From Sipunculus nudus (lineage: Eukaryota; Annelida; Sipuncula; Golfingiida; Sipunculidae), in assembly GCA_026874595.1 (NCBI GenBank), contig CM049316.1, positions 49,850,695 to 49,914,694 on the forward strand: a stretch of 64,000 nt of DNA, written 5' to 3'. The notes under the pieces were generated by a model. That model had not been told where the DNA came from and made no database searches. It was given only the letters and a program-made list of their open reading frames with translations. The translations under genes and the position numbers were made by a program. Positions 4,602 to 61,585 of this stretch are shown here, in pieces. The first letter of the stretch is position 1. Every line of letters starts with the position of its first letter.

Positions 4602-4784
4602 ACAAGGCCTACAGGCCTAATGCAAACCTGTGCAATGAGATTACACCAGGTATAACGCTTCAATGCTGGACCATTACTTTTCAAGAACATGTGTAACATG
4701 TATATGAACAATGCAAGTACTAAACACTTAGAACAAGAAACAATTAAACAAACATCACTGCTGCAATTCTGGCAAAAAAAACAA

Positions 4785-5969
4785 ACTAGAATATGGGTAG
4801 TCAACAAGCGACTACGTGTATCCACCAAAATCAGAGTAGGAAAGGTGAAGTGATGCATGGGTTGAGTGGCAAGGGGAAATAGAGTGAGGTGTATTGCATA
4901 ATAGCCTGGATGTCTGCAGCCGGAATGTGTATGTAGGTTGCGCCACCTACCACAAAATCCAGAAAGCTGTCCGAGATGTATAAACATGCAAAATTTTAGG
5001 CAGATAAGTCAAACCACTACTGAGATATGAGTGATTTTAGCCCACGGCAGAAAAGCAGACGTAGCTGTGCAAAAATGGTGGCAGGTGGCGCCACAAATTT
5101 TGTGTATGATTAAGAGCTATGCGAGATCTTTACACATACAACATTTCAGGGGGATATGTCAAACCAGTCATTAGATATAAGCCTGAATGTCTGCAGCATA
5201 TACATAAATATAGGTGGTGCCACCTGCCACAAAATCCAGAAGGCTATCCAAGATGTATAAACATGCAAAATTTAAGGCAGATATGTCAAAACACTGCTGA
5301 GATATGAGTGATTTTATGCCACGGCAAACAAACAGACAGATGCTGTGCAAAATGTTTGCAGATGGCACCACCAGTTGTCAGATGATAAAGAGCTATGTGG
5401 GATCTATAAACATGCAAAATTTTTGCCAAATCAGTCAAATGGTTCCTGAGATATCAGCTTGGATGTCTGCAGCTTAAACATGAATGTAGGTGGCGCCACC
5501 TGTCATAAAATCAAGAAAGCTGTCCAGGATGTATACACATGCAAAATTTCAGGTGGATAAGTCCAACCAATGCAGAGATATGAGTGTTTTTATCCCAAGG
5601 CAGATGAACAGATGGACGCTGTGCAAAAATGGTTGCAGGTGGTGCCACCATTTTTAGTGTATGTTATAAAGCTTTCCAAGGGCTACATTTGTGCAAAATC
5701 TTAAGCCTTATCAGTCAAATGGTTTCCTGAGATATGTGGGTTTATGTGTGGAAACAGACACACAAATGGACGCTGGGCAGAGAGGAAAGGTCAGAGGTCA
5801 ACCAAAAATGAGGGCGCAGCAGTTCACATTTGACTGATCATAATTACTAATTTTAAAAAATTCTGCCCAGTGGTTATGGAGAAGTTCTCTGGAAACCTAT
5901 GCGGCGATGGCAGCAGCGTGGGCGTCCGACTGAAAACATAGTATCTGCAAAACTCTTTGGCAGATACAA
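4785..5969 (+). mobile_element. Family B element, complete, inserted in D
   Basis: The head ACTAGAATATGGGTAGTC forms a hairpin (GTAGTC and GACTAC arms), then GTATCCACC. The tail is GTATCTGC...GGCAGATAC followed by AA. The interior consists of related units centred on GGTGGCGCCACC-type palindromes, each followed by phrases such as GATGTCTGCAGC. The insertion is supported by uninterrupted D copies at about 20625-20670 and 44735-44785. There, CTGAAATTCTGGCA leads directly through a short A-rich stretch to TTGTAGCTGGCACC, whereas here B lies between them. Confidence 0.78.
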
Positions 5970-6314
5970 TGATTGTAGCTGGCACCACCAGACTTATATA
6001 CAACGAAGAGATATATACATATGCCCAATATCAGACTGATATGTCAAACCCCTCCTGTGAAATAAGCAGGGACAGACACTGTGCAAAATGGTAGCAGGTG
6101 GCGCCACCATTTTTAGTGTATGTTATAAAGCTTTCCAAGGGCTACATTTGTGTAAAATCTTAAGCCTTATCAGTCAAACGGTTCCCGAGATATGTGGGTT
6201 TATGTGTGGAAACAGACGCACAAATGGACGCTGGGCAGAGAGGAAAGGTCAGAGGTCAACCAAAAATGAGGGCGCAGCAGTTCACATTTGACCGATCATA
6301 ATTCCGAATTTTAA

Positions 6315-8192
6315 ACAAGGGACCTATGGGTCACTGTGCTCAGCTGACCTTAACCTTGAAGGTGAAAATCTAAAATAATATCTAATGGAGATAAAGTGTA
6401 AGAGGAAGAGGTAATAAAGGCCATGGTTGGTTTATATGATTGGTTTGTATTGATTAGCAAGAAATTGTTGCAAAAAATATTTTGTGACCTGACCATGTGT
6501 TTCCTAATGTTGAAACTAAAGCATGTGAGCAGTTTGTGAACAAATGATCTGTACTATTACCATGATCATTAGTTGGTTTTTCGATTAACTGTTGACATTT
6601 CAGTAGTTTACACATTTGTTCAATTGAATCTATTTTTTTGTATAATATATATTATTGAATATATATGTATTTTATTTATGAAATGTATACAGTTGAAATA
6701 TAGCTAATTAACAACATAAAACAGGGCAAACAAAGCCTGATTTCAAATTCTGCTGAGGCAGGAAAATAATGAAGAAATGTTTGTATTAAAACCTGATTTT
6801 TTTATCACATCAATTATTTTCTAATTTAAGTTTATATTTCTATACATTTCCAATTTAACATATATATCTGAATATAAAAGTTGATTCATAATTCTCAATT
6901 GCATCATCATAAATCTCAATCTTGTCAGATAACACCACATCATGCATACAAATGTTTATTTATTTTTTACCACAAAAATATATCTTTTAAATCTGCAAAA
7001 CAATAAATATCTAAAAATAATACTTGATTTAGATTTCACAATTTTTAATTGTGTCTTTATTTATCCATAATGTACTTCATATTTTATAATAATTTAAGCA
7101 TACTGATGGGTTCCTTTATATTTGTTAAAATCATTTAAAAGAAAATTGATTTCTTTAAAAATGCTACATTACACAACATTGCATCTTCTGGATTACACCT
7201 TGAATTATTTTTTCAAGGAAAGTTTCTGCATATCGGAGTGGAAACAGCATTTAAGGAGATACAGTGAAAACAATAACAATTACTGCATAACACTTGGTGG
7301 GTTGGGTTTGCGGGGGGGGGGGGGGGGGGGGGGGGTGATTGGGGTGGTGATATGAGAATAACTGTACACCTGTCACAGCAGGGGATCTCCCCCAGTGACT
7401 GTAACAAATCAGAAACCCTGGCATAGCTGACTTCCAGTGACCTGGGGTGGGACCCTGCATCTGTAATCAAAGCAAGTGACTACAGAAAAAAAATCAATAA
7501 CTAGCTTAATTTTCAAGCTTTTATTTCCAAATTTCAGATTTAGACAAACTAAATATTTATGTTTACATGCTGTGAAAATTAAATCAATGGTGCTTACAGG
7601 AAAAAAACGTGCCATGGTCAAAGTTGGGCAAAATTTAAGGTACAGATTTTTTTTTTATGCTAATAACTTAAAAAATTTACAAAATTCAGATCTAATTTTG
7701 GGTAAACAATTGAATCTTAATTAAACATAGTTATATACTTGAAAAAATAGACTCTAGTTTCAAAATTTTTCATGTTAAGTGAGTTATCATTTTTCCTGAT
7801 TTTTTACAAAGTCCAATATGTTTGGGCCCACAACTTAAAGAATTTATACTTTACAGACTTAATTTCTGGCATGTACATAGGAACTATATAGAGGAATATT
7901 TATGGTAAATATGAGGAAAAAAAGATGAGTGGTTTTGATATGAGGCAGTCCTGAAGTGTGAAAATAGGATTTTAATAAAAAATTGAGGTTTTTCCTTAAT
8001 TTCTCAAAGGAACGAAGTCGCAAAGACCCAGTTTTCGGCTTGGTAGGAGATCTTGGGGACATCTAACATTATGCTGAATTTTGGATTCCTAGGTCTTACG
8101 ATTTTAACACGTGCCACATCTACGGACGGACGGACGACGGACAATGGACCACGACTATAGCTCAGATGACTTATAGTCAGCTGAGCTAAAAA
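6315..8192 (+). mobile_element. Family A2 element, complete (1.88 kb)
   Basis: Complete copy with head ACAAGGGACCTATGGGTCAC, subterminal GCTCAGCTGA, AT-rich interior and poly-G tract (7312-7335). It also has the CACCTGTCACAGCAGGGG block, a monomer starting near GTGCCATGGTC, a short ACGG-type microsatellite (8121-8140), and the tail hairpin followed by TAAAAA. The empty site in the first duplicate unit (about 5850-5870) fixes both ends to within a few A residues and shows no obvious target-site duplication. No open reading frame of credible length is present. Copies of the same type are at 1-866 and 48223-52788. Confidence 0.85.
7312..7335 (+). repeat. Poly-G tract, 24 bases, in A2
   Basis: A run of 24 G preceded by GTGGGTTGGGTTTGC and followed by TGATTGGGGTGGTGATAT. 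The same context holds the 20-G run at 49218-49237 in the other A2 copy, so it is a fixed part of the A2 body whose length varies. Confidence 0.9.
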
Positions 8193-13912: not shown

Positions 13913-13916
13913 ATAA

Positions 13917-15480
13917 ACTAGGGACCCATGGGTCTCAAAGCTCAGCTGCATTTGTCTAAAAGGATATGTTTATGAGGTTTTCCAAAATATTGGTCCTGTG
14001 GTCAGTTTGAAGCCAACCTGTTTACCCAAACTGGAGTTATCATCCATAAACTAATTTGTGAATGGATGGGCCCTGTGACCTTAACCTCTGACCTTGTGAC
14101 CCCAAAATCAAAAGCAAACTTTCTCCATTGGCAGGTGCACCACATGTCTATGATGGAAGGATTGAGATGAAAAGTTTGGCTTAAAATGCATAAACGATCT
14201 TTCTAAAGTAGTGGGTCCTGTGACCTTGACCTCTGATGTCATGACCCCAGAATCAACAGTTCTTACTTTAGTGGTGGGCCATTTTAAAGTCAAGTTTGAA
14301 ACCAATATTTCAAACCAAACTGGTGTTATTATCTGGAAAATAATATGTGGATAGATGACCCCCATGACCTTGACCTTTGACCTTGTGACCCCAAAATCCA
14401 TAAGTTACTTCCACTATTGGCAGGTGAGCAACATCTGGAAGATAGAATGTTTGGGACAGAAAGTTTGGTTAAAAATACATCAACAGTCTTTTTAAAGAAG
14501 TGGGTCCTGTGACCTTGACCTTTAGCCTTAGGACCCCAAACTCAAAAGGGTTCTTATATTATTGGTGGGTCAGATATAAGTCAAAATTGAAACCAATATG
14601 TCCATCCAAACTGGAGTTATCACCAAGAAACAAATATGTGGACAGATGGGCCCCTGTGACAATGACCTTTGACCTTGTAACCCCCAAATCAATCAGGTTC
14701 TTCACCTATTGGCAGCTCAGCTATGTGCAAGATGGAAGGATTGGGATGAAAAGTTTGGCTTAAAATGCATCCACAATCTTTCTATATAAGTGGGTACTGT
14801 GACCTTGACCTTTGACCTAATGACCCAAAATTGAACAGCATCTTCCCATATTGGCAGGTTAGCAATATCTTGAAGATTGAACGTTTGAGATGAAAAGTTT
14901 GGCTTCAAATACACATGCATTCTTTTAAAGAAAAGAGTCCTGTGACCTTGACCTTTGACCGTTGGACCCAAAAATCAACATGGTTCTTAATTATTTGTTC
15001 TTAATTTAGTGGTGAATCATATATAAGTTAAGTTTGAAACCAATATGTCAAACTAAACAGGAGTTATCATCTGGAAACTAATTTGTGAACAGATGGCCCC
15101 TGTGACCTTGACCTTTGACCATGTGACCTAAATTCATTTATGCTCTCCCCATACTGGCAAGTCAGCTAAATGTGCAAAATGGAAAGTTTGGGATGAAAAG
15201 CTTGGCTTAAAATGCAGCCATAATCTTTTTAAAAAAGTGAGTCCTGTGACCTTGACCTTTGACCTCATGACCCCAAAATCATAAAGGTTCTTGCTTTAGT
15301 GGTGGGCCATATGTAAGTCAATTTTGAAAACCATGTGTCAATACAACCTGGAGTTATCATCTGGAAACAAATTTGTGTGGATGGACGGATGGACAGCTAG
15401 ACAGACAAACAGACAGACAGGGTGATAACTATATGGCATCCACTTGGGATCAATAAACACACCTGGTTTTGGGACACTAG
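13917..15480 (+). mobile_element. F-type element with A-like head
   Basis: The head ACTAGGGACCCATGGGTC with GCTCAGCTG has the family A palindrome but the ACTAG start. The body is the ~148-bp array described separately, followed by GGACGGATGGACAGC and further GACAGACA repeats (15380-15420). The presumed end is GGTGATAACTATATGGCATC and beyond. The 3' end resembles the G tail at 60080-60116 only loosely, so the exact end is uncertain. Confidence 0.6.
14040..15400 (+). repeat. ~148-bp tandem array with TGACCTTGACCTTTGACC
   Basis: Nine diverged units. The core TGACCTTGACCTTTGACC or a close variant begins at about 14057, 14221, 14365, 14510, 14658, 14801, 14943, 15104 and 15248. Between cores are GTCAAGTTTGAAACCAATAT, GAGTTATCATCTGGAAAC and GATGAAAAGTTTGGCTTAAA. 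On the opposite strand the core reads GGTCAAAGGTCAAGGTCA, a run of nuclear-receptor half-sites. Another array of this type lies at 54200-54900. Confidence 0.9.
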
Positions 15481-15872
15481 ATGTAATTACAGCTGAGAAA
15501 CTGACATGATTGTTGTCATTTTATAGTAAAAAAAATTTAAATATTCGTTAAAATAACAAAAAATAAAGTCGGCGCCACAACTTTTCGGGAACTGACAAAA
15601 CTAGTAAAGGTCAATATTCAAGGCAAGATTCATGACAATCCATAAATTAATTATCAAGGTATTATTGGTTTTGTATTATATTTTTTATTATTCTTGGGGG
15701 TACTTCCAAGCCCCATAGCTCGGAGGATATAAGTCGCAGTAACTTTTCAGGTTTCCAAGGATATTTTTTATTGACCTCCCTGGATATTCACTTAGAAGTT
15801 TCTAGGTGGACGGATGACGGACAAAGTGCCATTCCTATACCTCAGTTAACTTACAGTCAGCTGAGCTAAAAA
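15481..15872 (+). mobile_element. Family A 3' end fragment
   Basis: It ends with a diverged A hairpin (CTCAGTTAAC and GTCAGCTGAGC arms) and TAAAAAA at 15872. Upstream is a fragment of the 340-bp A4-type unit (GGGGGTACTTCCAAGCCCCA, then GATATAAGTCGCAG) and a short GACGGA microsatellite. It is followed directly by an A monomer start (GGTGCCATGCCC) instead of host DNA. Confidence 0.6.
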
Positions 15873-17574
15873 AGGTGCCATGCCCAAAGTTGGGCAAAAT
15901 TTAAGGTACTGATTTTATATTTATGGGAATAACTTATAAAATTTGACAAGTTCAGAACTAAGTTTGGGTATTCAATTGAATCTTGATTAAATAATGTTAC
16001 ATCCCTGACAAAAAATCTCTAGCTTCAGCTATTCTTATGATAGATGAGTAAATATTTCCTCATTTTTTATAAGCAGCATTATGTTCGGGCCCATAACTGC
16101 AACAAACTAGAATAGGGGTAGTAGACAAGCGACTACAGGTATCCGCCAATGGGTGAAGTGAGGCACGGATTGAGTGGCAAGGGGAAAAAAGAGTGATGTG
16201 TGTTGCATATTAGCACTGATGTCTGCAGCCCAAATGTGTATGTAGGTTGCGCCACCTACCACAAAATCCAGAAAGCTGTCCCAGTTTTATACATTTGCAA
16301 AATCTATGGCAGATAAATCAAACCACTACATGTATATGAATGATTTTATCCCAAAGTTGACAAACAGAAGGACTTGTGCAAAAATGGTGGCAGGTGATGC
16401 CACCAATTTTGTATATGATTAAGAGCTATGCGAGACCTATACACATGCAAAATGTCAACCAGATATAAGCCTGAATGTCTGCAGCGTTAACATAAATGTA
16501 GGTGGCACCACCTGCCAACAAAACAAGGAGCTATCCAAGATGTATAAACATGCCAAATTTTAGGCAGATAAGTCAAATCACTACTGAGATATGAGTGAAC
16601 GGCAGACAAACAGACAGACACTGTGCAAAAAAGGTTACAAGTGGCCCCTCCAGTTTTGTGTATGATAAAGAGCTATGTGAGATCTATACACATGCAAAAT
16701 TTTGGTCCAATTGGTCAAACAGTTCCAGAGATATGAGCTTGGATGTCTGCAGTGTAAACTAGCATGTAGGTGGCGCCACCTGTCATAAAATCAAGAAAGC
16801 TATCCAGGATGTATATGCATGCCGAATTTCAGGTGAATTAGTCAAACCTCTGCAGAGATATGAGTGATTTTAACCCAAGGCAGACAAACAGATGGACACT
16901 GTGCAAACATGGTTGCCGGTGGCGCCACCATTTTTTGTGTATGTTATAAAGCAATCCAAGGGCTACATTTGTACAAAATGTTTGGTTCCCAAGATATGTG
17001 GGTTTATGTGTGGAAACAGATGCACAAATGGACAGAGATCAACCCCAATTGGTTGGGCACCAGTTCACATGTGACCCAATAATTGGTGTAAGTTTCGGAA
17101 AAATTGGTCCAGTAGTCTCAAAGTAGTAGTTCTCCGGAAACAAACGTGGTGTCGGCGGCGGTGGAACCCGGTCAAAAACATAGTATCCGCAAAACTTTGT
17201 TTTGGCGGATACAGTTATGCAATACTCGCCTAATTTTTGGTATCTACATAGGAAATGTATGGAAGAATATGCATATTTACTATTATCAAAGTCAGATCAG
17301 TGGTTTTGATATAAGGCGTTCTGAAAGTGTAACAATGGTTTTTTATGGAAAATGGAGGTTTCTGCCTTAATATCTCAACAGAACGAAGTCCTAATGACCC
17401 AATTTTCAGTATGGTAGAAGATTTGGGGACATCTAACTGTATGCTGAATTTCAGATTTGTAGGTCCAACGGTTTCAAAACATGCCAGTTAAAAGGACCGA
17501 TAGACAAATGGACAGCCGACGGATAAATGACCTCAACTATTGCTCAGATGACTTATAGTCAGCTGAGCTAAAAA
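15873..17574 (+). mobile_element. Family A 3' part split by a B element
   Basis: A monomer from GGTGCCATGCCC to the A tail hairpin and TAAAA ending at 17574. It is interrupted at CCCATAACT by the B element at 16106-17213. The remainder resumes as TTATGCAATACTCGCC, which aligns with the uninterrupted CCCATAACTTAAAACAATTA of other A copies (for example about 29418). The tail lies only about 100 bp from the CNOT1 exon at 17678. Confidence 0.7.
16106..17213 (+). mobile_element. Family B element, complete (1.1 kb)
   Basis: Head ACTAGAATAGGGGTAGT with AGCGACTAC and GTATCCGCC; tail GTATCCGC...GGCGGATAC then A. The interior has about four palindrome-centred units, including a perfect GGTGGCGCCACC at 16769-16780, and a short GGCGGCGGTGG stretch before the tail. 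It is inserted in a family A interior. Confidence 0.82.
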
Positions 17575-17677
17575 TTGTCATTTCGACCCACACTTTTGGA
17601 CCACCTCGTGAAATGCAACCCACAACAATACATCTTGTTCAATCAAAACATCTACTGAAGAAAAAGTAACCCCTTGC

Positions 17678-17913
17678 CTGGTCTTGAACCTATCAAGTGC
17701 TGCAATGCCAAAGTAGTACATCTTCGTTGCATGGGGTTTCTTGAGTGCCTCCAGAACATATCTAAGAGCCAAGCCCAGCTCCATGTATGTCACAAGGCCC
17801 TGCTCAATGATACCTCCAAACAGGACTGCTGTAGTATGAAGCTCCTTGTCTGGATACTGTGGGAAGAACCTGTACTCCTCAAACAAGTTCCTTAGCATGC
17901 AGGCAAACACATC
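17678..17913 (-). CDS. CNOT1: CNOT1 internal exon, TTP-binding domain core
   Basis: Internal exon of 236 nt (78 codons plus two bases) and the most conserved coding stretch in the window. Landmarks are [52 protein letters not shown] and [14 protein letters not shown], all close to animal CNOT1. It begins in phase 0 after acceptor TTACCTAG (AG at 17915-17914). The donor appears to be the non-canonical GC type: the exon ends ACCAG and the intron begins GCAAGG at 17677. This boundary is forced by the next exon (2310), which supplies the single G that completes Arg and then continues Leu-Lys-Asp. A family A 3' terminus lies about 100 bp inside the downstream intron (ends 17574). Confidence 0.95.
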
Positions 17914-19941: not shown

Positions 19942-22900
19942 GACGATATGACCTATGTGACCAACATTGGCATAAAATTTGGTGATGATAGCTCCAGCCG
20001 TTTCTGAGATTTAATATGCTTTTTTGCACATTTAACAAAGTTCAACCTCCTGTAACTTGGCCAAAAATCTCCGAACTGGAACCCTCCGAACAAACTTGAG
20101 AAAGATTGTTCCAGGGATCATTTATGTGAAATATTGGACTATTTTGCTGGACAGTTTCCAAGAAGAAGATTTTTGAAGCTTTTTTAGCTTTTTCCCCATA
20201 AAATCTGAGAAAATGCAGTTAGAAAACTAGATGTGTCGGAACGACACGAATTTACCCCCCCTGGGGCAAATCAGAAACATTTGTTAAATTTTGTAAAATT
20301 TTTTAAGTCCATGAGGTGTCGTATGGTCAAAAGTAGGTCAACAAGGGCAAAATGCAAACTCGATCTGTAACGGGTCATTATCAAGCAACACACCAAAAAT
20401 CAGGCCAGTATCTGCAGGAATTGTGAAAACAAGGGACCCATGGGTCACGGCGCTCAGCTGTTATATATGATAAACAAGGCCTACAGGCCTAATGCGAACC
20501 TGTGCATTGGGAAATGCACCAGGTATAATGCTTCAATGCTGGACCATTACTTTTCATGTATATGAACTATGCAAGTACTAAACATTTTGAATAAGAAACA
20601 ATTACACAAACATCACTGCTGAAATTCTGGCATAGGTGCACACAACACTAAAAAGATTGTAGCTGGCACCACCAGTCTTGTATACAACAAAGCCATCAGA
20701 GATATATACATATGCCCAATTTCAGACTGATATATCAAACCCCACCTGTCTTGTGAGTGAGAAAGCCATCAATGACACATAGACAGGTCAAAATATTAGG
20801 CCAATACATCAAACTTATCTTGAGTCTGATGCATGGGGCTGACCAGGCTTAGGTGAGAAAGGCTGTTGCCCCGAGTGAACTGTGACAAATTGCTTGCTCA
20901 GACTACTGCACTGAGTGAACTCATGACCTGCACCTGGCCAGACTGAGTGAACTTTTGACCTGTACCTGGCTGCACTGAGTGAACTCTTGACCTGTTGCAT
21001 AATCTGACACAGTTGGCAGTCTGCCAAAGCTATAAACAGAATGCAGCTACTGCACTGAGTAAACTCCTGACCCATACCTGGCTGCACTGAGTGAACTCTT
21101 GACCTGTTGCCTAATCTGATACAGTTGGCAGTCTGCCAAAGCTATAAATAGATCCAGACTGACCTCTAGCCTGTTGCCAAATCTGAAATAGTAGCCACAC
21201 CATTGCATAAGCTCATGCAGGGGCCCTGCCCTGAGGGGCTTGACACCCATGAAATGATCACATGTCACCCATGAGGTGATCACATGCCATGTGCTTGGCT
21301 GCACTGATTGAACTCTTGACCTATATCTGGCTGCACTGAATGAACTCTTGATCTGTTCCCAAATCTGAAACAGTTGGCAGTTTCTCAACCTATTTAAAGA
21401 TACAGATTCAATCATGGCCTGTTGGTATATCTGTTTACACATACTGAAAGACTTTGGTTAAAATTTCTTTTTTTTTTCAAGCCTACATATTCATAAACTT
21501 TTTATCAAAATATCTAGAATAATAAAAGATGCAGTCCTTTCATTGTTAAAGGTCCAATAGTTCTGCCAAAAATCATTCTAGTAAACTTGTACAAAGGCCA
21601 CCTAAGAATAATTTTTGTGCAATGTTACAGAAGATATAATTGAAATAATAATTTTGTAGAAGAACACTATTGCAGTCCTCAGTTTGAAAAAGACATAATA
21701 ATGGCCATAAGACCAACTTAAGCTTTTCACAACTCAACCAAAAATCAACAAACTCAGTATATTCTGATATGATTGAAAAAACCATGTCCTAGGATAATTC
21801 TTTTGAAAAATTGAACTATTCAACTTGACAGTTTCATCATTAAGCTGAAAGAGGCTAAAATTATGAGGTTTTTTGCCCATAAAAAACAGGTCAATGTAGG
21901 TGGCACCACTAAATCTACAACTTCAAATATGAGTCATGTGACCAACATTTGCACAATACCTGGTAATGCTTGCTTCTGTCATTTCTGAGAGTACTATGTC
22001 AGTGTGCTTACTTGGCCGAATGACTGTTCAAATTTGTGTTACTCCACTAAAATTCATCAAATACAAACCATTTGAACAAACTTGAGAGGGCTTGCCTCTG
22101 GGATCATTTATGTAAAATATTTAACAATTTGGCTGGACCGTCTACAAGAAGACGACTTTTAAAATATTGTCAGCTTTTTCCTTATAAAATCTAAGTAAAT
22201 GCAGATAGCAAAAAAATAAGCTGAATCCAATAAAATTTGATATGTGACAGATTATTGCATAAAATCAGGGAATGGTAGCTCCTGCTATTCCTGAGAAATT
22301 ATGGATTAATGTACAGATGACCAATGACCCCCGTACAAAAATAGGTCAATTCAGGTGGCGCCACCAATACCTGAATTTCATATATGACTCATGTGACCAA
22401 CACTGGCAAAAAAGTTGGTGATGATAGCTCTGGCTGTTTCTGAGACTGTCATTTTAGTATGCTTTTTTGGACAGATGACTAAGTTCAACTTCCTGAACAA
22501 AATTGAGGGAGATGGTATAAAAGATTATTTCTGTGAAATATTGAACAATTTGGCTTGAGTGTTTCGTCGGAGAAGATTTTTAAAGGTTTTTTTTAGCTTT
22601 TTCTCTATAAAAGTTAAGAAAATTTTCAGATGGCTAAATTTCATGATGCTAGCTCCAATCATTTTCAAAATAGTATGGGTGAACGTACAGAAGACAAACG
22701 CCGCCACACCATTGCATTAGTTCACAGGTTCACTAAAAATTAAAACAGATGCATATTGAATGCAAAACTGTAATACAGATACATCTCACTGATGGCAAAA
22801 TCTTGAATTAATTTGACTATGGATACCAATTATTTATAATCCATGTACAGCCGTCTTTATATACCCACAGAGAGCTGTATAGCTGTGATTGTAAACATTG

Positions 22901-23207
22901 CCTGGCATGAGGAATATCTAAAAATCATAAATCTACATTTTTTAAAAGCTTTTAAAAACATTCTTGACAATATTAACCATAGATAACCTGAAATCTAAAT
23001 GTCTAGAGACATGATGTAATAAATGCTGATAAACTGGTGCCAGTCTAGATGTATCTAGATATATCTGTGTATCTGCTTCACACAGCTAACATATATGGTA
23101 AAATGACTCAATTGAACCTTTATAATTCAGCCAAAATTCATTCTTTGGAACCATAAAAGACAATTATTATGAGAATTATTCACGGGATTATTCTTGTAAA
23201 ATATTAA

Positions 23208-25266
23208 ACAAGGCCTACAGGCCTAATGCGAACCTGTTCAAAGTTTAGGAGTATAAATGGAGGTTTATTTTTAAAATTTAATACTGATCCTTTTAAGTCC
23301 TGCATATCTACCTTAGTCATTATGATTTCTGCAAAATGGACATTTCTGCCCTGCAAGTTTCAGACTAGGACATTTTAAAACTAGAATATGGGTAGTCGAC
23401 AAGAGACTATGTGTATCCGCAGAAATCAGAGTAGGATGAGTGAAGTGAGGCATAGATTAAGTGGCAAGGGGAATAGAGTGAGGAGTGTTGCATATAAGCA
23501 CAGATGTCTGCAGCGTAAACATGAATGTAGGTGGTGCCATCTGTCATAAAATCAAGAAAATTGTCCAGGATGTATAAACCTGCAAAATTTCAGGTGGAAA
23601 AGTCAAACAACTGCTGGGATATGAGTGATTTTATCCCAAGGCAGATGAACAGAGGGACGCTGTGCATAAATGGTTGCAGGTGGCGCCACCAGTTTTGCCT
23701 ATGATGAAGAGCTATGTGAGATCTATACACATGCAAAATTTTGGCCCAATTGGTCAAACGGTTCCTGAGATATGAGCTTGGATGTCTGCAGAGTAAACCT
23801 GAATGTAGGTGGCGCCACCTGTCATAAAATCAAGAAAGCTGTCCAGGATGTATAAACCTGCAAAATTTTAGGTGGATAAGTCAAACCCCTGCTGAGATAT
23901 GAGTGATTTTTTCCCAAGGCAGATAAACAGATGGAAGCTGTGCATAAATGGTTGAAGGTGGCGCCGTCAGTTTTGCCCATGATGAAGAGCTATGTGAGAT
24001 CTATACACATGCAAAATTTTGGCCTAATCGGTCAAACGGTTCCCCAGATATGAGCTTGGATGTCTGCAGAGAAAACGTGAATGTAGGTGGTGCCACCTGT
24101 CATAAAATTGAGAAAGCTGTCCAGGATGTATAAACCTGCAAAATTTCAGGTGGATAAGTCAAACCATTGCTGAGATGAGTGATATTATCCCAAAGCGGAT
24201 GAACAGATGGACGCTGTGCAAAAATGGTTGCAGGTGGCGCCACTATTTTTAGTTTATGTTATAAAGCTATCAAAGGGCTACATTTGTGCAAAATTTTTTT
24301 TGAGGGTGCAGCAGTTCACATGTGACCTGATGATAAACCCTATTTGCTTAAAATGCAAACCAATTTTTTCAAACAGTTGAAAGATATAGTTCCAATAATC
24401 TGGGAATTCTGCATCTAAACATTGTGTCTAGACGTCTAGACACATTGTCTAGACACCCCCTCTGAGCCAGATCAGTTGCCATGGTGATGTCTGGACCCCA
24501 CCTGTTTGAACTGAGTGACCTCTTGACTTGGCTGCTGAAACTCAGCAAGTTGTCATATCTGTTTTCAAATACAGAAAGCCTTTTTCAATTGGCTACAATG
24601 CTTTTTAAAAGCTGTATTTACCCAATCTATTCTTATAAAACTGGCAGAACCCTACCATAGAATAATTCTTGTAAAGTTTAACCCAATCAGCTTAACAGTT
24701 TCATCAAAAATCAGTGTATAAGCTAGAAGAGTTTAAAATTACATTTTCGCTTGTAAAAAACACATTAATGTAGGTGGCGCCACCAATACCTCAAAATCAG
24801 ATCTGACATATACGACAAACATTGGTATAAAATTTGGTGATTACAGCTCTAGCCATTTCTGAAATTTTAAGTTTAGTATGCTTTTTTGCACAGATGACTA
24901 AGTTCAACTTCCTGTAACTCGGCAAAAAATCTCCGAACTGGAACCATTCGAACAAACTTGAGAGAGATTGTTCCAAGGAACATTTCTGTGAAATACTGAA
25001 CAATTTGGCTGGACAGTTTCAGAGAAGAAGATTTTTAAAGCTTTTTTAGCTTTTTCCCTATAAAATCTAAGAAAATGCAGTTAGAAAAAAAATAAACAAA
25101 ATCCGATATAGTTTTTTGGATGACTGATTATTTGCATAAAATTTGCTGATGCTAGCTCCTGCTGTTTTTTAGATAAGTACGGTTAACGTACAGATGAAGC
25201 ACGTCGTACAACGCACGACACACGATGGACGACGCCGCACCATCGCATAAGCTCACAGGTTCGCTA
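23208..25266 (+). mobile_element. Family D2 element nested in D1
   Basis: Head ACAAGGCCTACAGGCCT with GCGAACCTGTTC; tail TAAGCTCACAGGTTCGCTAA. It interrupts D1 between TTGTAAAATATTA and CAAATTGGCCTCAG. The uninterrupted sequence is near 10245-10270 (TTGTAAAATATTTAACAAAC). It carries a B element at 23380. A near-twin of its 5' 170 bp is at 19524. Confidence 0.78.
23380..24330 (+). mobile_element. Family B element, 3'-truncated, nested in D2
   Basis: B head ACTAGAATATGGGTAGTC, then three to four palindrome units of ~290 bp, each with GAGCTTGGATGTCTGCAGAG. It breaks off within GGGTGCAGCAGTTCACATGT and never reaches the B tail. Adjacent DNA (24345-24700) is unclassified, with a repeated GTCTAGAC motif (24425-24450). 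Confidence 0.7.
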
Positions 25267-26525
25267 ACAAATTGGCCTCAGTAGGGTCAGTCAAAAAAAA
25301 TTTTACAGGTTTATAACTCATATGGGAAAATACAGCAAAATGGCTAAGTTAAGCTTCCCGTAACTCAGCCTAAAATCACTGAACCAAAACCTTTGAACAA
25401 ACTTGAATTATCAACATCTAAGGATAATTAATGTGTGAGATTTAAGAATTTGGCCCTGTGGTTTTTGAGGAGAAGATCTTTGTAGCCACTGAGCAAAAAT
25501 GGGCTGTTACAGCATATGACTAAATTCAGCTTCCCATAACTCAGCCAAAAGTCAATGAACTTAGACCATTTGAACAAATTTCAGAAAGCACTACCCTAGG
25601 ATCATTTCTGTGTGATATTAAACTATTTGGCCATATGGTTTCAGAGAAGAAGTTTTTTGTAGCCGTCAGTATGATAGGGGCACTGATGACCCCCGTACAA
25701 AAAATGTCGATGCAGATGGCGCCACCAATACCTCAATTTCAGATATGTCTCATGTGAACAACATTGGCATAAAATTTGGTGATGATAGCTCCAGCCGTTT
25801 CTGAGATTGTAATTTTAGTATGCTTTTATGGACTGATGACTAGGTTCAACTTCCTGTAACTCGGCCAAAAATCACCGAACTTAAACCATTGGAACAAACC
25901 TGAGAAAGATTATTCCAGGAATCATTTCTGTGAAATATTGGACAATTTGGCTGAACAGTTTCGGAGAAGAAGATTTTTAAAGCTTTTTTAGCTTTTTCCC
26001 TATAAAATCTAAGAAAATGCAGTTAGCCAAAAAATAAGCAAAAACCGATAAAGTTTTTTAGATGACTAATTTTTTGCATAAAATTTCGTGATGCTAACTC
26101 TTGCCGTTTTCAAGATAGTATGGGTTAACGTACAGACGACGGCCGACGGATGACGCCACACCATCGCATAAGCTCACAGGTTCGCTAAAAATATGATTTG
26201 GGAAAGAGGCACATGCTTGTTTTGTGTGGTAAAAAAAATTTATAAGCTTTATTATGAGTTGTTGGTGTTTAGCTTATGTATGATTTTGATAGTATCTTTG
26301 GAGACAGGGAAGAGGATTGATTTCATTTATTTTATTAACAAATGGAGTGCTATTGTCACACAGATTTTGACTTGGCCATATAACATATAAGCAGAACATA
26401 TAATATAAGAGTTTAACTATTTATTAAAAAAAATTACAAATATTGTCCAAAATATAATTTTTATAAAAAAATTAAGAGAATCATATGATTTTTTTAAATG
26501 AAATATAACTGATATGATTATTGAA

Positions 26526-28238
26526 ACTAGAATACGGGTAGTCGACAAGCGACTACTTGTATCCGCCTAAATCAGAGTGGAACGGGTGAAGTGTTGCATA
26601 TCAGCATGGATGTCTGCAGCCAAATTGTGTATGTAGCTTGCGCTACCTACCAAAAATCCAGAAAGCCGTCCAAGTTGTATACATATGCAAAATTTAAGGC
26701 AGATAAGTCAAACCACTATATTGTATATGAGTGATTTTTGCCCTTGGCAGACAAACAGATGGACGCTGTGCAAAAAAGGGTTGCAGGTGGCGCCACCAGT
26801 TAAGCGTATGATAAAGAGCTTTGTGAGAACTATACACATGCAAAATTTTGGCCCAATTGGTCAAACAGTTCCCTAGATATGAGCTTGGATGTCTGCAGCG
26901 TAAACTTGATTGTAGGTGGCGCCACCTGTCACAAAATCAGAAAAGCTATCCAGGATGTATAAGCATGCAGAATTTCAGGTGAATTAGTCAAACCACTGCA
27001 GAGATATGAGTGATTTTAACCCAAGGCAGACGAACAGCTGGACACTGTGCAAACATGGTTGCAGGTGGCGCCACCATTTTTTGTGTATGTTATAAAGCTC
27101 TCAAAGGGCTACATTTGTGCAAAAAAATTTTCCTGATTAATCAAACGGTTCCTGAGATATGAGCTTGGATGTCTGCAGCGTAAACATGAATGTAGGTGGC
27201 GCCACCTGTCATAAAATCAGAAAAGCTATCCAGGATGTATACGCATGCCAAATTTCAGGTGAATTAGTCAAGTCACTGCAGAGATATGAGTGATTTTAAC
27301 CCAAGGCAGACAAACAGATGGACACTGTACAAACATGGTTGCAGGTAGCGGCACCATTTTTGGTGTATGTTATAAAGCTCTCCAAGGGCTACATTTGTGC
27401 AAAAGAATTTTCCTGATCGGTCAAACGGTTCCCGAGATATGAGCTTGGATGTCTGCAGCGTAAACGTGAATGTAGGTGGCGCCACCTGTCATAAAATCAG
27501 ATAAGCTATCCAGGATGTATACGCATGCCAAATTTCAGGTGAATTAGTCAAGTCACTGCAGAGATATGAGTGATTTTAACCCAAGGCAGACGAACAGATG
27601 GACACTGTGCAAACATGGTTGCAGGTGGCGCCACCATTTTTGGTGTATGTTATAAAGCTCTCCAAGGGCTACATTTGTGCAAAAGAATTTTCCTGATCGG
27701 TCAAACGGTTCCCGAGATATGAGCTTGGATGTCTGCAGCATCAACGTGAATGTAGGTGGCGCCACCTGTCATAAAATCAGAAAAGCTATCCAGGATGTTT
27801 GCGCATGCCGAATTTCAGGTGAATTAGTCAAGTCACTGCAGAGATATGAGTGATTTTAACCCAAGGCAGACGAACAGATGGACACTGTGCAAACATGGTT
27901 GCAGGTGGCGCCACCATTTTTGGTGTATGTTATAAAGCTCTCCGAGGGCTACATTTGTGCAAAAAAATTTTCCTGATCGGTCAAACGGTTCCCGAGATAT
28001 GTGGGTTTATGTGTGGAAACAGACGCACAAACGGACGCAGAGCGCAGAGGAAAGGTCAGAGGTCAAAACAAAATCGGGGCGCAGCAGTTCACATGTGACC
28101 CGAACATAATCCCGGGTTTGGGAAAATTCCGCCCAGCGGTTACGGAGGAGTTCTCCGGACACCTACGCGGCGGCGGCGGCGGCGGCGGCGACCAGCTGAA
28201 AACATAGTATCCGCAAAACTCTGTTTTGGCTGATACAA
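26526..28238 (+). mobile_element. Family B element, complete (1.7 kb), inserted in A1
   Basis: Head ACTAGAATACGGGTAGTC, hairpin GTAGTCGACAAGCGACTAC, then GTATCCGCC. Tail GTATCCGC, loop, GTTTTGGCTGATAC, AA, with a (CGG)n run (about 28165-28189) before it. The empty site GATTATTAAAATAATATTAA at 49781-49800 and again at about 52876-52895 marks both ends. Here GATTATTGAA precedes and TAATATTAAAG follows, with no clear target-site duplication. Confidence 0.88.
26881..27960 (+). repeat. ~280-bp tandem array inside the B element
   Basis: Four highly similar units; the marker GAGCTTGGATGTCTGCAGC recurs at about 26881, 27163, 27442 and 27722. Each has two palindromes, GTAGGTGGCGCCACCTGTC and GCAGGTGGCGCCACCATTTT, about 165 bp apart. 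One palindrome copy is broken (GGTAGCGGCACC at about 27345). High similarity indicates recent expansion or homogenisation. Confidence 0.9.
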
Positions 28239-39846: not shown

Positions 39847-41185
39847 ACTAGAATACGGGTAGTCATCAAGTGACTATGTCTATCCGCCAAAATCAGAGTG
39901 GAACGGGTGCAGTGAGGCATGGATTGAGTGGCAAAGGGAAACAGAGTGAGGTGTGTTTTATATTAGCATGGATGTCTGCATAAGACCACTACTGAGAAAT
40001 GAGTGATGTTAGCCCATGGCAGACAAACAGACTGATGCTGTGCAAAAAATGTTGCAGGTGGCCCCTCAAATTTTGTGTGTGATAAAGAGCTATGAGTGAT
40101 CTATACACATGCAAAATTTTGGCCAAGTCATCCAAATGGTTCCCTAGATATGAGCTTGGATGTCTGCAGCATAAACTAGAACATAGGTGGTGCCACCTGT
40201 CATAAAATCAAGAAAGCTGTCGAGGATGTATGAATCTGCAAAATTTTAGGCAGATATGTCAAATCTGTGCCGAGATATGAGTGATTTTATCCAAAGGCAG
40301 ACAAACAGATCGATGCTGTGCATAAATGGTTGCAGGTGGCGCCACCAGTTTTGGGTAGGAAAAAGAGCTATGTGAGATCTACACACATGCAAAATTTTGG
40401 CCCAATCGGTCAAACAGTTCCCGAGATATGAGCTTGGATGTCTGCAGTGTAAACTGGAATGTAGAAGGCGCCACCTGTCATAAAATCAAAGAAGCTGTCC
40501 AGGATGTATAAACATGCAAAATTTGAGGCAGAAATGTCAAACCACTGCCGTGATATGAGTGATTTTATCCTACAGCAGACAAACAGATGGACACTGTGCA
40601 AAAATGGTTGCATGTGGCGCAAACAGTTTTGCGTATGATAAAGAGCTATGTGATATTTATACACATGCAAATATTCAGGAAGATGGATGTCTGCAGCGTG
40701 AACGTGAATGTAGGTGGCACCACCTGTCATAAAATCAAGAAAGCTATCCAGGATGTATACGCATGCCGAATTTCAGGTGAATAAGTCAAACCACTGCAGA
40801 AATATGAGTGATTTTAACCGAAGGCAGCGAACAGATGGACACTGTGCAAATATGGTTGCAGGTGGCGCCACCATTTTTTGTGTATGTTATAAAGCTAGCC
40901 CAGGGCTACATTTGGACAAAAAATTTTCCTGATCAGTCAAACGGTTCCCGAGATATGTGGGTTTATGTGTGGAAACAGACACACAAATGGATGCTGGGCA
41001 GAGAGGAAAGGTCAGAGGTCAAAACAAAATCGGGGCGCAGCAGTTCACATGTGACCGGAACATAATCCCAGGTTTCGTAAAATTCGGCCCAGCAGTTAAG
41101 AAGGAGTTCTCCGGACACCTACGCGGCAGCGGCAGCAGTTGGCTGAAAACATAGTATCCGCAAAACTCTGTTTTGGCGGATACAA
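39847..41185 (+). mobile_element. Family B element, complete (1.34 kb)
   Basis: Head ACTAGAATACGGGTAGTC (second hairpin arm mutated, AAGTGACTA) and CTATCCGCC; tail with perfect arms GTATCCGC and GCGGATAC, ending ACAA at 41185. The interior has several palindrome units and GAAAGGTCAGAGGTCAAAAC near the tail. It fills most of the short CNOT1 intron 39090-41273. Confidence 0.88.
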
Positions 41186-44583: not shown

Positions 44584-45872
44584 ACAAGGCCTACAGGCCT
44601 AATGCGAACCTGTGCATTGGGAAATGCACCAGGTATAATGCTTCAATGCTGGACCATTACTTCTCATGTATATGAAAAATGCAAGTACTAAACATTTTGA
44701 ATAAGAAACAATTACACAAACATCACTGCTGAAATTCTGGCATGAGTGCACACAACACAAAAATTATTGTAGCTGGCACCACCAGTCTTGTATACAACAA
44801 AGCTATCAGAGATATATACATATGCCAATTTCAGACTGATATATCAAACCCCTCCTGAAAATAAGCAGGGACACACACTGTGCAAATATTATTGTAGGAG
44901 GCACCACCACTCTTGCATACGACAAAGCTATTTGATATGTATGTATATGCCCTATTTCCGGCTGATATATCAAATTCTTCTGTAGAAATAAGCAGGCACA
45001 TACACTGTGCAAAAGTCACTGTAGGTGGCAACACCTGTCTTGTGAACGAGAAAGCCATCAAAGACATATAGACAGGTCAAAAATCAGGCTAATACATCAA
45101 AGTTCAAACTTACATTGAGTCTGGTGCATGGGGCTGACCAGGCTTAGCTGAGAAAGGCAGCTGCCCCGAGTGAACTGTGACAAATTTGCTGGCTCAGGCT
45201 ACTGCACTGAGTGAACTCATGACCTGCACCTGGCTAGAATGGGTGAACTTTTGACCTGTACCTGGCTGCACTGAGTGAACTCTTGACCTGCTGCATAACC
45301 TGACACAGTTGGCACTCTGCTAAAGCTATAAATAGATCAAGGCTGAACTTTGGTGCCAAATCTGATGCAGTAGGCAGTCTGCCAATGCTATAAATAGAAT
45401 GCAGCTACTGCACTGAGTGAACTCCTGACCCATACCTGGCTGAACTGAGTGAACTCCTAACCTGTTGCTTAATCTGATACAGTTGGCATGACACCCATGA
45501 AGTGATCACATGGTGCCCATGAAGTGTTCACATGTCACCCATGAGGTGATCACATGCCTTGTGTTTGGCTGCACTGATTGAACTCTTAACCTATATCTGG
45601 CAGCACTGAATGAACTCTTGATCTGTTGCCAAATCTGAAACAGTTGGCAGTTTCTCAACCTTTTTATGTATATCAAAATTTCTAGAACAATAAAAGATGA
45701 AGTTCTTTCATCGTAAAGGTCCAATAATTCTGCCAAAAATCATCCAAGTAAACTTGAACAAAGGCCACCTAAGAATAATTTTTGTGCAATGTTACAAAAG
45801 TTATAATTTAAACAATAATTCTGTAGAAGAACAGTTTTGCAGTCCTCAGTTTGAAATAGACATAACTACAAA
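44584..45872 (+). mobile_element. Family D1 element, 5' part
   Basis: Head ACAAGGCCTACAGGCCT, GCGAACCTGTGC, nearly identical to 20474-20760 over its first 200 bp. It continues through D1 palindrome units, a short TATA-like array (45190-45460) and CCATGAGGTGATCACATG repeats. It is broken at ACATAACTACAA by the G head. No D tail follows. Confidence 0.75.
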
Positions 45873-47153
45873 ACTGACAGGTCAGTAAGGGCCCCGCAAA
45901 AGATGCAGTCATTATAAACTGAAGTATGGTGAATTTGGTGTACTTCGGTAGCATGGGCTGAAAGAGTGATATTTGAAAATTAAAGAACCTGTAAAGAATG
46001 CTGACATGTATAAACTGGAAGAAAAGATATGGTAAAGTGAAAATGTTCAAAGCTATCAAAATAATGATATAAAAGAACTGCATGCATTTTTAGTTTCTGT
46101 ATTTCTGTATTACCTGTGCCAATTATTCTTGGTTGAAGTCTTGGCTGGGCTGTGTCAAATATTTTTCCAGTATTTGTATGTTGAATTAGCCTTATTATAT
46201 GTGAGGCTTGAGTCTGTACATGAACCTTGTAGTATTACAGAGAGTCAGCTGTTGGTTAGTAGTGATAAAATGGTCATTCTCTTGAACTGAGATTCAGCTG
46301 TTCTTGGGCTTGGGTCTACAGATGCAATGTGATGTGTAGAATGGCTACATAAGAATATCAATGTAAATTTGTTGATGGTCACTATAATAGGTCCAAATTC
46401 CTTGAGATGTTGGAAGTGGAGATAGATTTGTCCAAACATGGTCTAAATGAGAGCCACTATGGTGTGTTGGGCCAGTGTATCCTTTCCTGGGGAATCTTCA
46501 AATTGTCTGTACAAAATATGCTGTGACAATGTAATGCCGCTGTAAACGAGTGACTCGAAAAAGATTCATCCATTTCTGGCCTGCTGAAGGAGACACCAGC
46601 AACTGAATACCAAACTGTGTATTACTTTTTTTTTTCCTTCTGACCCAAATATCAATAAGCTTCTCCCTCATTCCATGGGTGATACATCTTATGTTTGAAT
46701 CCTATCCATCATATGTTAGGGGAGTTATTATGCAGAAACGAATTTGATTGTTCATCAAATTCTTTGCGGGTTATTGCATTAACATCATTTGAGAATTATC
46801 GCCTCTGTCAAGGTCATCCATCTTTGAACTTGACCTAGCCCTTCATAACAAACATTTCTGGTACAAGTTCAGTGAGTGTTAGTCAAAATGTTTGCAAGCT
46901 ATTTTGGAAAATCAATCAAGTTCACCCATCTTCAAACATGATGTAGTTCCTTAAAAGGTCCATCACTGCCGTGAGTCTAGGACCTTAAAAGAAATACTTT
47001 TTATGAGTTAATGTGTTAACAATGTGTGTCCTTTTGCATGCATATTTGCTATGAGAGTGCAACCTTACTAGGTGTTCAGTAATGGTTTTTACCACATAAC
47101 TTACAGAACAAGGGACCTATGGGTCACGGCGCTCAGCTGTTATATATGATAAA

Positions 47154-47988
47154 ACTAGATGTGTCGGAACGACACAAATGCCCCCGCCTGGGGCAAATTA
47201 GAAACAGTTGTAAAATTTTGAAAAATTTTTTAAGTTCAGGAGGTGTCGTATGGTCAAAAGTAGGTCAACAAGGGCAAAATGCAAACTCGATCTGTAACGG
47301 GTCATTATCAAGCAACACACCAAAAATCATGCCATTATATGCAGGCATTGTGAAAAAAAGCCCATACATGTGCATTTTCCATAAAAATTTCTGTCTTTCA
47401 TGAAAATTTTCTATGTTTAGGAGCCGTAAAACAATGAAAAGTAGGTCAACCGGGACGAAACGCGAACTCGATCTGTAACTGGTCATTATCTGCCAACACA
47501 AAAAATCAGGCCAATATCTGCAGGGATTGCAAAAAAAAGTCCGTACATGTGTATTTGTCATGAAAATTTCTATTTTTCATGAAATTTTCTAAGTTTAGGA
47601 GCCATAAAACAGTCAAAAGTAGGTCAACTGGGACAAAACGTGAACTCGATCTGTAACTGGTCATTATCTGCCCACACACCAAAAATCAGGCCAATATCTG
47701 CAGGCATTGCGAAAAAAAGTCTGTACATGTGTATTTGTCATGAAATTTCATATTTTTCATGAAATTTTCTATGTTCAGGAGCCGTAAAACGGTCAAAAGT
47801 AGGTCCACCGGGAGGAAACGCGAACTCCATCTGTAACTGGTCTATATCTGCCCACACACCAAAAATCAGGCCAATATCTGCAGGCATTGCGAAAAAAAGT
47901 CCGTACAACTTTTTGATTTTGGAATGACGGAAGGACGGACATGGGTAAAACTATATGCCCCGGCCACTTTGTGGCAGGGGCATAAAAA
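47154..47988 (+). mobile_element. Family E element, complete (835 bp)
   Basis: Best complete E. Head ACTAGATGTGTCGGAACGAC (hairpin GTGTCG/CGACAC), then ATGCCCCCGCCTGGGGC. The body has about three and a half units of ~180 bp (GGTCAAAAGTAGGTCAAC, ATCTGCAGGCATTGC), then a GACGGAAGGACGGAC microsatellite. The tail hairpin is ATGCCCCGGCCA and TGGCAGGGGCAT, followed by AAAAA. It is inserted in A1 between TATATATGATAAA and TATGATTTAGAAATG. Confidence 0.92.
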
Positions 47989-55688: not shown

Positions 55689-55690
55689 TA

Positions 55691-56864: not shown

Positions 56865-56866
56865 TA

Positions 56867-59780: not shown

Positions 59781-60116
59781 TGGCTGACTATGACCATATA
59801 TCATGCCTAGTTGCTGTTGACATGAGGACTTGTCCTACTGTTATGGTGGAACAAACAATTATGGTTACAATTATGATTTCTGCCCTTTTGAAAGAGGGAC
59901 CAAAAATTTAACACCAAACTGTGAATAACTTTTTTAACCTTTGACCTCCGGACCCCAAAATCGATAGGGATCTTCCATAATTGATGGTTAATACATATTT
60001 AAGGTTTGAACTCAATCCGTCAATCCTAACTGGAGTTATCATCCAGAAAAGAATTTGTGGATGGACAGACGGACAGGTCAATTACTATAGGACACCAGCT
60101 ATTCAAGCGGGGCCCT

Positions 60117-60545
60117 AATTAGGAACCTTGGCATAGCTGACCAGGAGTGGCCAACCTGCATGTTGACAAAGCAAGTGAAAATTTCCAAATTTCAAATTTA
60201 AACAGATTACATACTTATGTTTACATGCTGTGAAAATTAAATCAACAGTAATCATAGGATAAAAATGTGCCAAGATCAAAGTTGGGCAAAACTGAAGGTA
60301 CTAATTATATTTTTATGCTAAAAACTTTAAATTTACAAAATTCAGATCTAATTTTTGGTATTCTTTATTAAAGAAAGTTAAATACTTGTGGGGGGGGGGA
60401 TTCTCTAATTTCAAAATTTTTCATGTTAAGTGAGTAAATATTTTCCATGTTTTTTACACAGTCCATAACTTTTTTACACTTGATTTTAATTTCTTGCATG
60501 TATATTGGAAATGAAAAGAAAAATACTTCTGGTAATTATAAAGAA
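60117..60545 (+). mobile_element. Family A2 interior, left of the C insertion
   Basis: Matches A2 interior from CCTTGGCATAGCTGACC through AAGTTGGGCAAAACTGAAGG. It stops at TGGTAATTATAAAGAA where the C element begins, and the continuation resumes at 61586. Confidence 0.65.
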
Positions 60546-61585
60546 ACTAGAATATCAGCAAAAGCTGACAAAAGCCCTCAGCCAAAAGAGCAGTGTTTAG
60601 AGGTGGTAACAGTAACAAGTACTAAATATCTGTTCTCACATGGATGTATATCTGTACATGTCTCAGTTATAAATTTAAAATGGAGAGGTATGTACCATGA
60701 TTCATAACAATCCACCAAATGCTTCCTGAAAAATAAGCTTCTAAGTTTTATTCTATTATAAGCTCTGTGACCTTGAAAAGTAGGTCAAGGTCACCCATCT
60801 TCGAACATGAACGAGATTTTTGTCGATATACATCTTCACCAAAGAAATAAAATTCCTATTGTGAATCCTTTTAGAGATATCCCGCTCACAAGGCCAAAGT
60901 TAAAAAATCCAAGAAAAATTCAATAAAAAATCAGAAATTGCAGGTGGCGCGCCCAAACTTGTGCAGCAGTTACAGACCATCAGTCCCTATGATCATAGTA
61001 AGTATTGTGAAAATCCATCCAATGGTTCCTGAGAAATAAGCTTCTAAATGTTTTTCCTATAATCAGCTCTAAAACGTAGAAAAATAGGTCAAGGTCACCC
61101 ATCTTCGAACTTGACCGAGATTTTGTCAATATACATCTTCACCGAAAAAATAAAATTCTTACGGTGAATCTTTTTCGAGATATCCTGCTCACAAGCCCAA
61201 AGTTGAAAAATCCGATAAAAATTCATTAAAAATCAGAAATTGTAGGTGGTGCCACCAAACTTATATAGCAGGTACAGACTATCAGTCCCAATAATCATAG
61301 TAAGTTTTGTTAAAATCCACCAAATGGTTCCTGAGTAATAAGCATCTAAGTGTTTTTCTATAATCAGCTCTAAAATGTAGAAAAATAGGTCAAGGTCACC
61401 CATCTTCGAACTTGACTGAGATTTTGTCGATATACATCTTTACCGAGGAAATAAAATTCTGACGGTGAATCCTTTTCAAGATATCCCGCTCACAAGGTAA
61501 AAGTTAACGGACGCCGGCCGGACGGACGGACGGACAGCTTGGGTGACGACAATAGCCCATCAGCCTAAGGGCTGAGGGCTAAAAA
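60546..61585 (+). mobile_element. Family C element, complete (1.04 kb)
   Basis: Head ACTAGAATATCAGCAAAAGC (hairpin TCAGC/GCTGA) with subterminal AGCCCTCAGCC. The body is about three units of ~300 bp with AGGTCAAGGTCACCCATCTT and a palindrome variant (GGTGGCGCGCCC at about 60943, GGTGGTGCCACC at about 61246). A GACGGACGGACGGACAGC microsatellite follows (61521-61540). The tail hairpin is AGCCCATCAGCC, TAA, GGGCTGAGGGCT, then AAAAA. It is inserted in A where uninterrupted copies read ATGAGGAAAAACAGATGAGT (about 556). Confidence 0.88.

Follow-up and report, generated by a model that had tools for sequence, protein, structure and literature searches.

Helentron families are defined by subterminal inverted repeats (subTIRs) of at least 11 identical bp (PMC4067079). 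Among the Helentron-associated elements (HINEs), Cg_HINE of the oyster Crassostrea gigas is described as carrying a 5' subTIR of 11-12 bp, a complementary inverted repeat (IR), a GTCY/GTCC microsatellite, an array, and a 3' subTIR with a palindrome (PMC7492417); oyster elements mixing Helitron and Helentron features have also been reported (PMC7992393). Only one transposon strand is used by Helraiser (PMC5876387). The target strand is not addressed in the accessible part of a paper on active wheat Helitrons (PMC13286980), and a literature search over titles and abstract openings found no report of orientation domains for Helitrons or HINEs. The window analyzed here is a stretch of 64,000 nucleotides of the Sipunculus nudus genome (C11:49850695-49914694; genome size 1.43 Gb) that contains repeat families A, B, C, D, E and G and exons of the CNOT1 gene. 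We consider it likely, with a probability of about 0.7, that these repeats are non-autonomous Helentrons with lineage-specific end codes, which insert into T-runs and take a strand set by the locus through an exposed single strand.

The first-pass annotation of the window had described one terminal layout shared by six families. A motif scan and the printed ends show that the heads and tails quoted for families A to E are present in the window, and the layout with its paired motifs held for these five families; G formed no element. The polarity had to be reversed: all matched ends are on the minus strand, what had been called the head is the 3' end, and the tail is the 5' end. Read as the reverse complement, family A begins with a T-run, AGCTCAGCTGAC, a short loop, GTCATCTGAGCT and a GTCC-like microsatellite, followed by an interior with tandem repeats, and its 3' side consists of TCAGCTGAGC, the palindrome GACCCATGGGTC and C-CTTG-T. 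This is the order 5' subTIR, complementary IR, microsatellite, array, inverted subTIR, 3' palindrome, and families B, C, D and E have the same layout with unrelated subTIRs. The elements and ends in the window are as follows.

4602-4830, minus strand: D 3' end, with a B 3' end 183 bp on
6315-8192, minus strand: family A ends (3' at 6315, 5' at 8192)
13917-15872, minus strand: family A HINE, both ends
16106-17214, minus strand: family B HINE, both ends
20474-26191, minus strand: family D stretch within an A' copy (A' 3' end at 20429), with further D and B ends inside
26526-28238, minus strand: family B HINE, both ends
33691-34874, minus strand: family B HINE, both ends, the 5' end weak (9/36 mismatches)
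39847-41185, minus strand: family B HINE, both ends
45865-45897, minus strand: single family G 3' end
47154-47988, minus strand: complete family E HINE with a 180-bp array, within an A' copy (A' 3' end at 47108)
60546-61585, minus strand: complete family C HINE (3' end at 60546, 5' end at 61585; tandem array 60709-61507)

Inverted subTIRs occur at both ends of A to E, and not in G. The 3' motif had been called the exact inverse of the 5' motif; B shares 9 bp and E has a mismatch. An IR complementary to the 5' subTIR is seen in the printed ends of A, B, C and E and is not evident in D, and the 3' palindrome is present in A to E and in G. Between the ends lie a microsatellite, GTCC-like in A, C and E and GCC-rich in B, and tandem repeats. 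The 3' end strings measure ~31-42 bp from subTIR to terminus, shorter for A, D and E, and 27 of the 29 printed 3' ends read C-T-[A/T]-G-T or close variants with T beyond; the other two, at 55526 and 32617, are shifted or changed. The elements do not have the ends of canonical Helitrons: their 5' ends start within the subTIR and not with TC, and the 3' CTAG of B, C and E fits CTRR, the CTTG of A and D does not. The suggested resemblance to HINEs was borne out, the tested features matching HINE and Cg_HINE apart from small differences in spacing, and the layout, being the published one, makes these elements of an already known kind. That the motif varies from family to family within a constant layout is correct and was already described for families defined by subTIRs (PMC4067079).

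Exact copies of the 5' ends, counted genome-wide with patterns of 17-27 letters, numbered 33,424 for A (forward:reverse 16826:16598), 5,418 for D (2744:2674), 3,360 for B (1726:1634), 3,038 for E (1537:1501) and 1,295 for C (647:648). The reversed patterns, used as the control, gave 0 matches each in the whole genome; with thousands of exact copies against zero, the A to E ends are not chance matches. Covariation of head and tail, which had been proposed as a check, held in the pairs tested: among 5'-to-3' neighbouring ends on the element strand in the window, the family code is the same in 11 of 12 simple pairs, compared with a shuffled mean of 3.3 (1 of 100,000 shuffles as high), and the sole mismatch is a D 5' end followed by a B 3' end. 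A blind scan of the window for the grammar proved too stringent to pick up the families; its heads were five on the plus strand, namely the A element at 13916-15859 plus chance hits, with none on the minus strand and 0-2 in each of ten Markov sequences. Of family G, the window contains a head at 45865 and, 14 kb away, a tail-like motif at 60107; neither recurs across 350 kb of sequence examined. The core of the G head was found at 460 places genome-wide (213:247) with at most two mismatches, at least 90 of them exact among the matches listed. G is a real but rarer repeat, and its two motifs in the window form no element.

Two arrangements of ends recur. A D 3' end is followed ~170-185 bp on by a B 3' end three times in the window (4602/4785, 19524/19696 and 23208/23380), which may be a composite D-B element mobilized as a unit. 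Paired A 5' ends ~230-260 bp apart are found at 866/1095 and 59551/59780 in the window and at 190989/191221, 223518/223776 and 455507/455745 on contig C1; these are perhaps tandem products of rolling-circle copying.

Autonomous elements were sought through their Rep domain. A profile search with PF14214 gave at least 143 Rep matches (150 of 195 candidates scored), and the fragments were sorted by eye and by tree into lineages G1, G1b, G2, G3, G4, G6 and G7 and canonical Helitrons. Two protein queries for more Rep lineages returned nearly the same loci as PF14214, with extra low-scoring loci that include C7:80736618 and C17:37215847. The regions downstream of Rep were read for 14 G2, 2 G3, 1 G4, 7 G1, 2 G1b, 3 G6, 1 G7 and 1 canonical element. 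Ten of the 14 G2 elements carry an A 3' end, and in 8 of these 10 the homology between sister copies stops at the A 3' terminus (L004/L031/L036, L032/L034/L038 and, within a few bases, L005/L022); a further A end at L030 was left uncounted, lying 1.8 kb beyond the stop of sister-copy homology. Both G3 elements carry an E 3' end, and their E 5' end lies at most 7 bp from the start of their mutual homology, followed by a GTCATTCC/GTCC repeat and then by the 180-bp E array, 86-91% identical to the arrays of the window. They span ~12.0 kb (C3) and ~12.4 kb (C5), and with E ends and E array on the G3 elements, the E HINEs resemble G3 Helentrons that have undergone internal deletion. The single G4 element spans 16.6 kb from an exact D 5' end (35/35) to a D 3' end (30/31); nested within it are A ends and a B 5' end. 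The suggestion of one code per autonomous partner was supported at both ends for E (two copies) and D (one copy) and at the 3' end for A, with partners for B, C and G not found.

A Helentron is expected to encode a Rep with S between G and P in motif 2, a PIF1 helicase and an endonuclease. The L004 frame of G2 (2,342 aa) matches Helitron_like_N (5.1e-27) and PIF1 (6.5e-23), the frame of L037 (G3) matches Exo_endo_phos (2.2e-9), that of L012 (G3) matches Helitron_like_N, and G4 aligns to L004 across helicase and endonuclease. Rep motif 2 reads RGSPH in G2 (L004) and G3 and RGSTH in G4. Two frames upstream of the L005 Rep resemble OB-fold proteins, below the Pfam cut-offs, and would fit the replication protein A (RPA)-like gene of Helentrons. 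Residues 63-210 and 681-805 of the L004 frame match PF04843 (tegument-protein cysteine-protease-like) and DUF6570, PF04843 being N-terminal. For the other lineages, no A to E 3' end in gene orientation was found in the regions read, which is not a strict test with their own 3' termini unlocated. B and C sequence does occur in G6 regions and was considered as the G6 code: L087 has a head-deleted B element downstream of the gene, the B array of L089 interrupts the helicase frame, and L088 has a complete C element inside the gene region. These are inserted HINEs and hence not G6 codes. Long open frames for Rep are most numerous in the G1 Helentrons (L001, L002, L003, L006 and L092), where they reach 2426 aa; L092 bears its own 148-bp array, to whose sequence no counterpart was found in the window.

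The codes were compared with the descent of the Reps. The A-code Reps are 76-99% identical among themselves and form one clade (97/92), the D-code Rep is sister to that clade at 60-65% identity, and the E-code Reps, themselves a clade (100/99), are 36-41% identical to A. The A code is shared by Reps down to 76% identity, so it holds across Rep divergence of at least 24%; between neighbouring Rep lineages the code differs. The tree test itself is weak with three labelled lineages (label shuffles were as low in 33 of 200). Our data support end codes that follow Rep lineages in the three testable cases, A, D and E. In this reading the subTIR is a lineage-specific code, most likely bound by the Rep of that lineage. 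Alternatively, the subTIR differences would be markers that drifted with descent, and any Helentron Rep would move any HINE. The nearly identical subTIRs of families less than 70% identical (PMC4067079) fit such markers. We hold this alternative to be on the unlikely side: the A subTIR is kept between Reps 76% identical when other parts diverge, among them the 3' palindrome, altered on both arms from GACCCATGGGTC to GGCCCATGGGCC, and this retention amid divergence suggests constraint on the subTIR. The A-code elements with GGCCCATGGGCC are L032, L034, L038 and L039, which also end in CTAGT instead of CTTGT.

The E element at 47154 and the D element at 20474 occupy the same site of two A' copies. 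Excising E (47154-47983) or D (20474-26186) leaves A-runs of 8 or 7, and an uninterrupted A' copy at 49433 has an A-run of 7 at that site; a second one (3670) differs, with CACAAAA. The A-rich 3' end that had been assigned to the element is, by this excision comparison, the A-run of the target (a T-run on the element strand), and T flanks lie beyond the printed 3' ends of the window. At these two sites, the D and E insertions in A' copies, copies inserted into T-runs without target duplication, the feature by which ends of unrelated DNA transposons were to be recognized. An A-type 3' end also adjoins the same A' motif at L031, which indicates that the A' site is used repeatedly.

All 57 matched family ends of the window (866-63299) are on the minus strand. 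Thirteen matches on the opposite strand have 7-9 mismatches and fall within self-complementary hairpins of A or E ends already counted. The same strand carries the gene, as three collinear CNOT1 exons at ~62.2, 39.0 and 17.8 kb, the first of them weak.

17677-17913, minus strand: CNOT1 exon (TTP-binding domain; Pfam PF16417 E 4.6e-38, PDB 4j8s E 1.8e-41)
38899-39114, minus strand: open frame with the preceding CNOT1 exon (PDB 4j8s E 8.6e-20, Pfam PF16417 E 2.2e-12)
62054-62290, minus strand: open frame, probably a further upstream CNOT1 exon, weak (PDB 8fy3 E 0.023, residues 710-772; no Pfam support)

Between the outer two exons lie 41 of the 57 ends, 24 of them between the two firm exons, and all are sense. 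HINE-packed stretches of 21-23 kb separate the exons.

The two strands are balanced genome-wide, and coherence was therefore tested locally, on C1. The orientation data comprise the first 100 places for each pattern, forward before reverse as judged from the family A counts, and the last stretch may be incomplete on one strand. From 0 to 1.16 Mb the orientations were 75:2 for A, 9:0 for B, 1:0 for C, 16:0 for D and 7:0 for E (108:2 in total), and from 1.16 to 1.5 Mb all 19 places entered were flipped. The concordance analysis left out the concordant A places 180777, 337292 and 975404 and place 1290198 of the flipped block, and included 216693 (discordant) and 2230542. From 2.3 to 16.3 Mb, places of different families agreed in 31 of 33 pairs under 5 kb and 72 of 80 at 5-20 kb (103/113 under 20 kb), in 105/143 at 20-50 kb, 154/235 at 50-100 kb and 245/442 at 100-200 kb, and in about half beyond 200 kb. 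With orientations shuffled within families, none of 1000 shuffles reached the observed value in any bin under 100 kb, and 18-20 of 1000 did so in each of the three bins from 100 to 800 kb; at 800-1600 kb concordance was below half (1015/2272) and all 1000 shuffles were as high, hinting at alternating domains. A single composite may account for some of the D-B pairs under 1 kb; omitting A and C still left 36 of 39 in agreement at 5-20 kb. Neighbours of different families at most 100 kb apart agree in 71 of 96 cases (0 of 10,000 permutations as high), and under a constant switch rate the mean domain length is 92-135 kb. Tandem duplication as the cause was rejected, since repeated spacings were not in excess: in 0-1.16 Mb, 65 bins contained at least two, where the jittered mean was 79.6, and in 2.3-16.3 Mb there was 1 such bin for a jittered mean of 3.5. 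On C1 and in the window, the locus and not the family sets the insertion strand.

A mechanism can be proposed in which each HINE family has retained the cis ends found in a longer Helentron lineage, namely the subTIR with its complementary IR at the 5' end and the inverted subTIR with the palindrome at the 3' end. The Rep of the matching lineage would read the subTIR, and the element strand would join a single strand laid bare by some host process with a direction; the likeliest such strand is the non-template strand displaced in transcribed genes. We see about even chances that strand choice is dictated by the locus in this sense, families with unrelated ends and, where known, different Rep lineages sharing a near-absolute orientation within domains of ~100 kb to 1 Mb by way of a strand exposed through transcription or replication. 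If replication were responsible, the element strand would be joined into the lagging-strand template and the domains would be fossils of germline fork direction. The ~92-135 kb domains and the 1.1 Mb domain at the start of C1 are of sizes that replicons can have. The orientation of IS200/IS605 elements mirrors the replication direction of the host (PMC5371812). Replication direction is a serious rival that we nevertheless rate as rather unlikely: 108:2 over 1.1 Mb is stricter than stochastic animal origins would lead one to expect, and the agreement of orientation with gene sense in the window is predicted directly by transcription, by replication only through coincidence or co-direction.

Orientation might instead reside in the target sequence, T-runs being unequal between strands and insertions into older HINEs copying their orientation, in which case domains would grow by nesting. 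Elements do insert into T-runs, the A' site received D, E and the L031 A-type end, all oriented alike relative to it, HINE-like sequence on the same strand makes up many of the flanks in the window, and T-runs of at least 7 favour the element strand 60:28 (2.1x). T-runs of at least 3, 4, 5 and 6 are, however, only 1.25, 1.27, 1.14 and 1.31 times commoner on that strand, compared with 57:0 for the ends, and 13 ends whose outer 150 bp has no same-strand match in the window are still co-oriented; two end pairs share a junction (15872/37289 and 19696/23380). Nesting is thus an improbable source of the domains. We are more doubtful still of unbiased insertion followed by loss of antisense genic copies through selection or transcription-coupled repair. 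The gene-orientation bias of human L1, in part attributed to such repair (PMC5717806), is a precedent. Under such loss, intergenic copies should dilute concordance, but agreement is seen in 103 of 113 pairs of different families under 20 kb. To our knowledge, gene-orientation biases of this kind are far weaker than 57:0. Evidence from a single gene and a single contig does not decide among transcription, replication, antisense loss and nesting.

Several observations weigh against the reading of lineage-coded Helentrons with a locus-set strand. There is no A end in three of the 14 G2 elements (L007, L033 and L040), and the A 5' end was not found in ~25 kb upstream of the L005 Rep, nor was the 5' end of an A Helentron reached in L081-L084 or L099-L106. 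The D link is one nested copy, the G4 element also contains a degenerate, oppositely oriented D 3' end, and B, C and G are without a partner. The Exo_endo_phos match of L004 is below the cut-off (4.4e-4; 20.5 against 24.5 bits), and the G3 proteins seen are Rep and endonuclease, the sequence read excluding the helicase stretch. As for orientation, it was mapped on one contig and one gene, the E end of L099 is opposite to A 3' ends 5-6 kb away, and the excess of long T-runs on the element strand counts here too. That the repeats are miniature inverted-repeat transposable elements of a cut-and-paste DNA transposon, as inverted motifs at both ends might suggest, is hardly credible, the motifs being subterminal, the ends asymmetric, the two sites examined free of target duplication and the same ends recurring on Rep-bearing elements.

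Autonomous partners remained unassigned in the oyster HINE study. The present elements link three codes to three Rep lineages, for two of them through both ends, which makes code specificity testable. The orientation domains are the more surprising part, and locus-set orientation merits follow-up. If orientation tracks transcription or fork direction, a HINE-rich genome records germline strand exposure, its HINE copies, in the tens of thousands, could be read as a fossil map of the direction of transcription or of replication forks in the germline, and target-strand choice by a transposon becomes directly testable.

Compared with Cg_HINE as presented in the accessible text of its report (PMC7492417), the elements of S. 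nudus have the same order of parts and families with different flanks. Cg_HINE could not be related to autonomous partners, whereas three codes are found here on Rep-bearing elements; Cg_HINEs occur in both orientations, and that text describes no local domains. With HINE-Mo/DINE-1 and Helentrons (PMC4067079) they share families defined by subTIRs, a T-rich target left without modification, derivation by deletion from elements with Rep, helicase and endonuclease, and an RPA-like gene, the last two as far as the frames above go. The 3' subTIR of HINE-Mo lies 38-60 bp from the 3' end, here ~31-42 bp. Unlike in HINE-Mo/DINE-1, most 3' ends here are C-T-[A/T]-G-T. For the likeness to IS200/IS605 we presume a shared HUH chemistry from knowledge of the family. 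The IS200/IS605 elements are bacterial and tied to replication, and we claim no descent from them; with a directional host process that would play the corresponding part here, the HINEs work like IS608 of that family in that the host locus sets the orientation of insertion (PMC5371812, PMC5876387).

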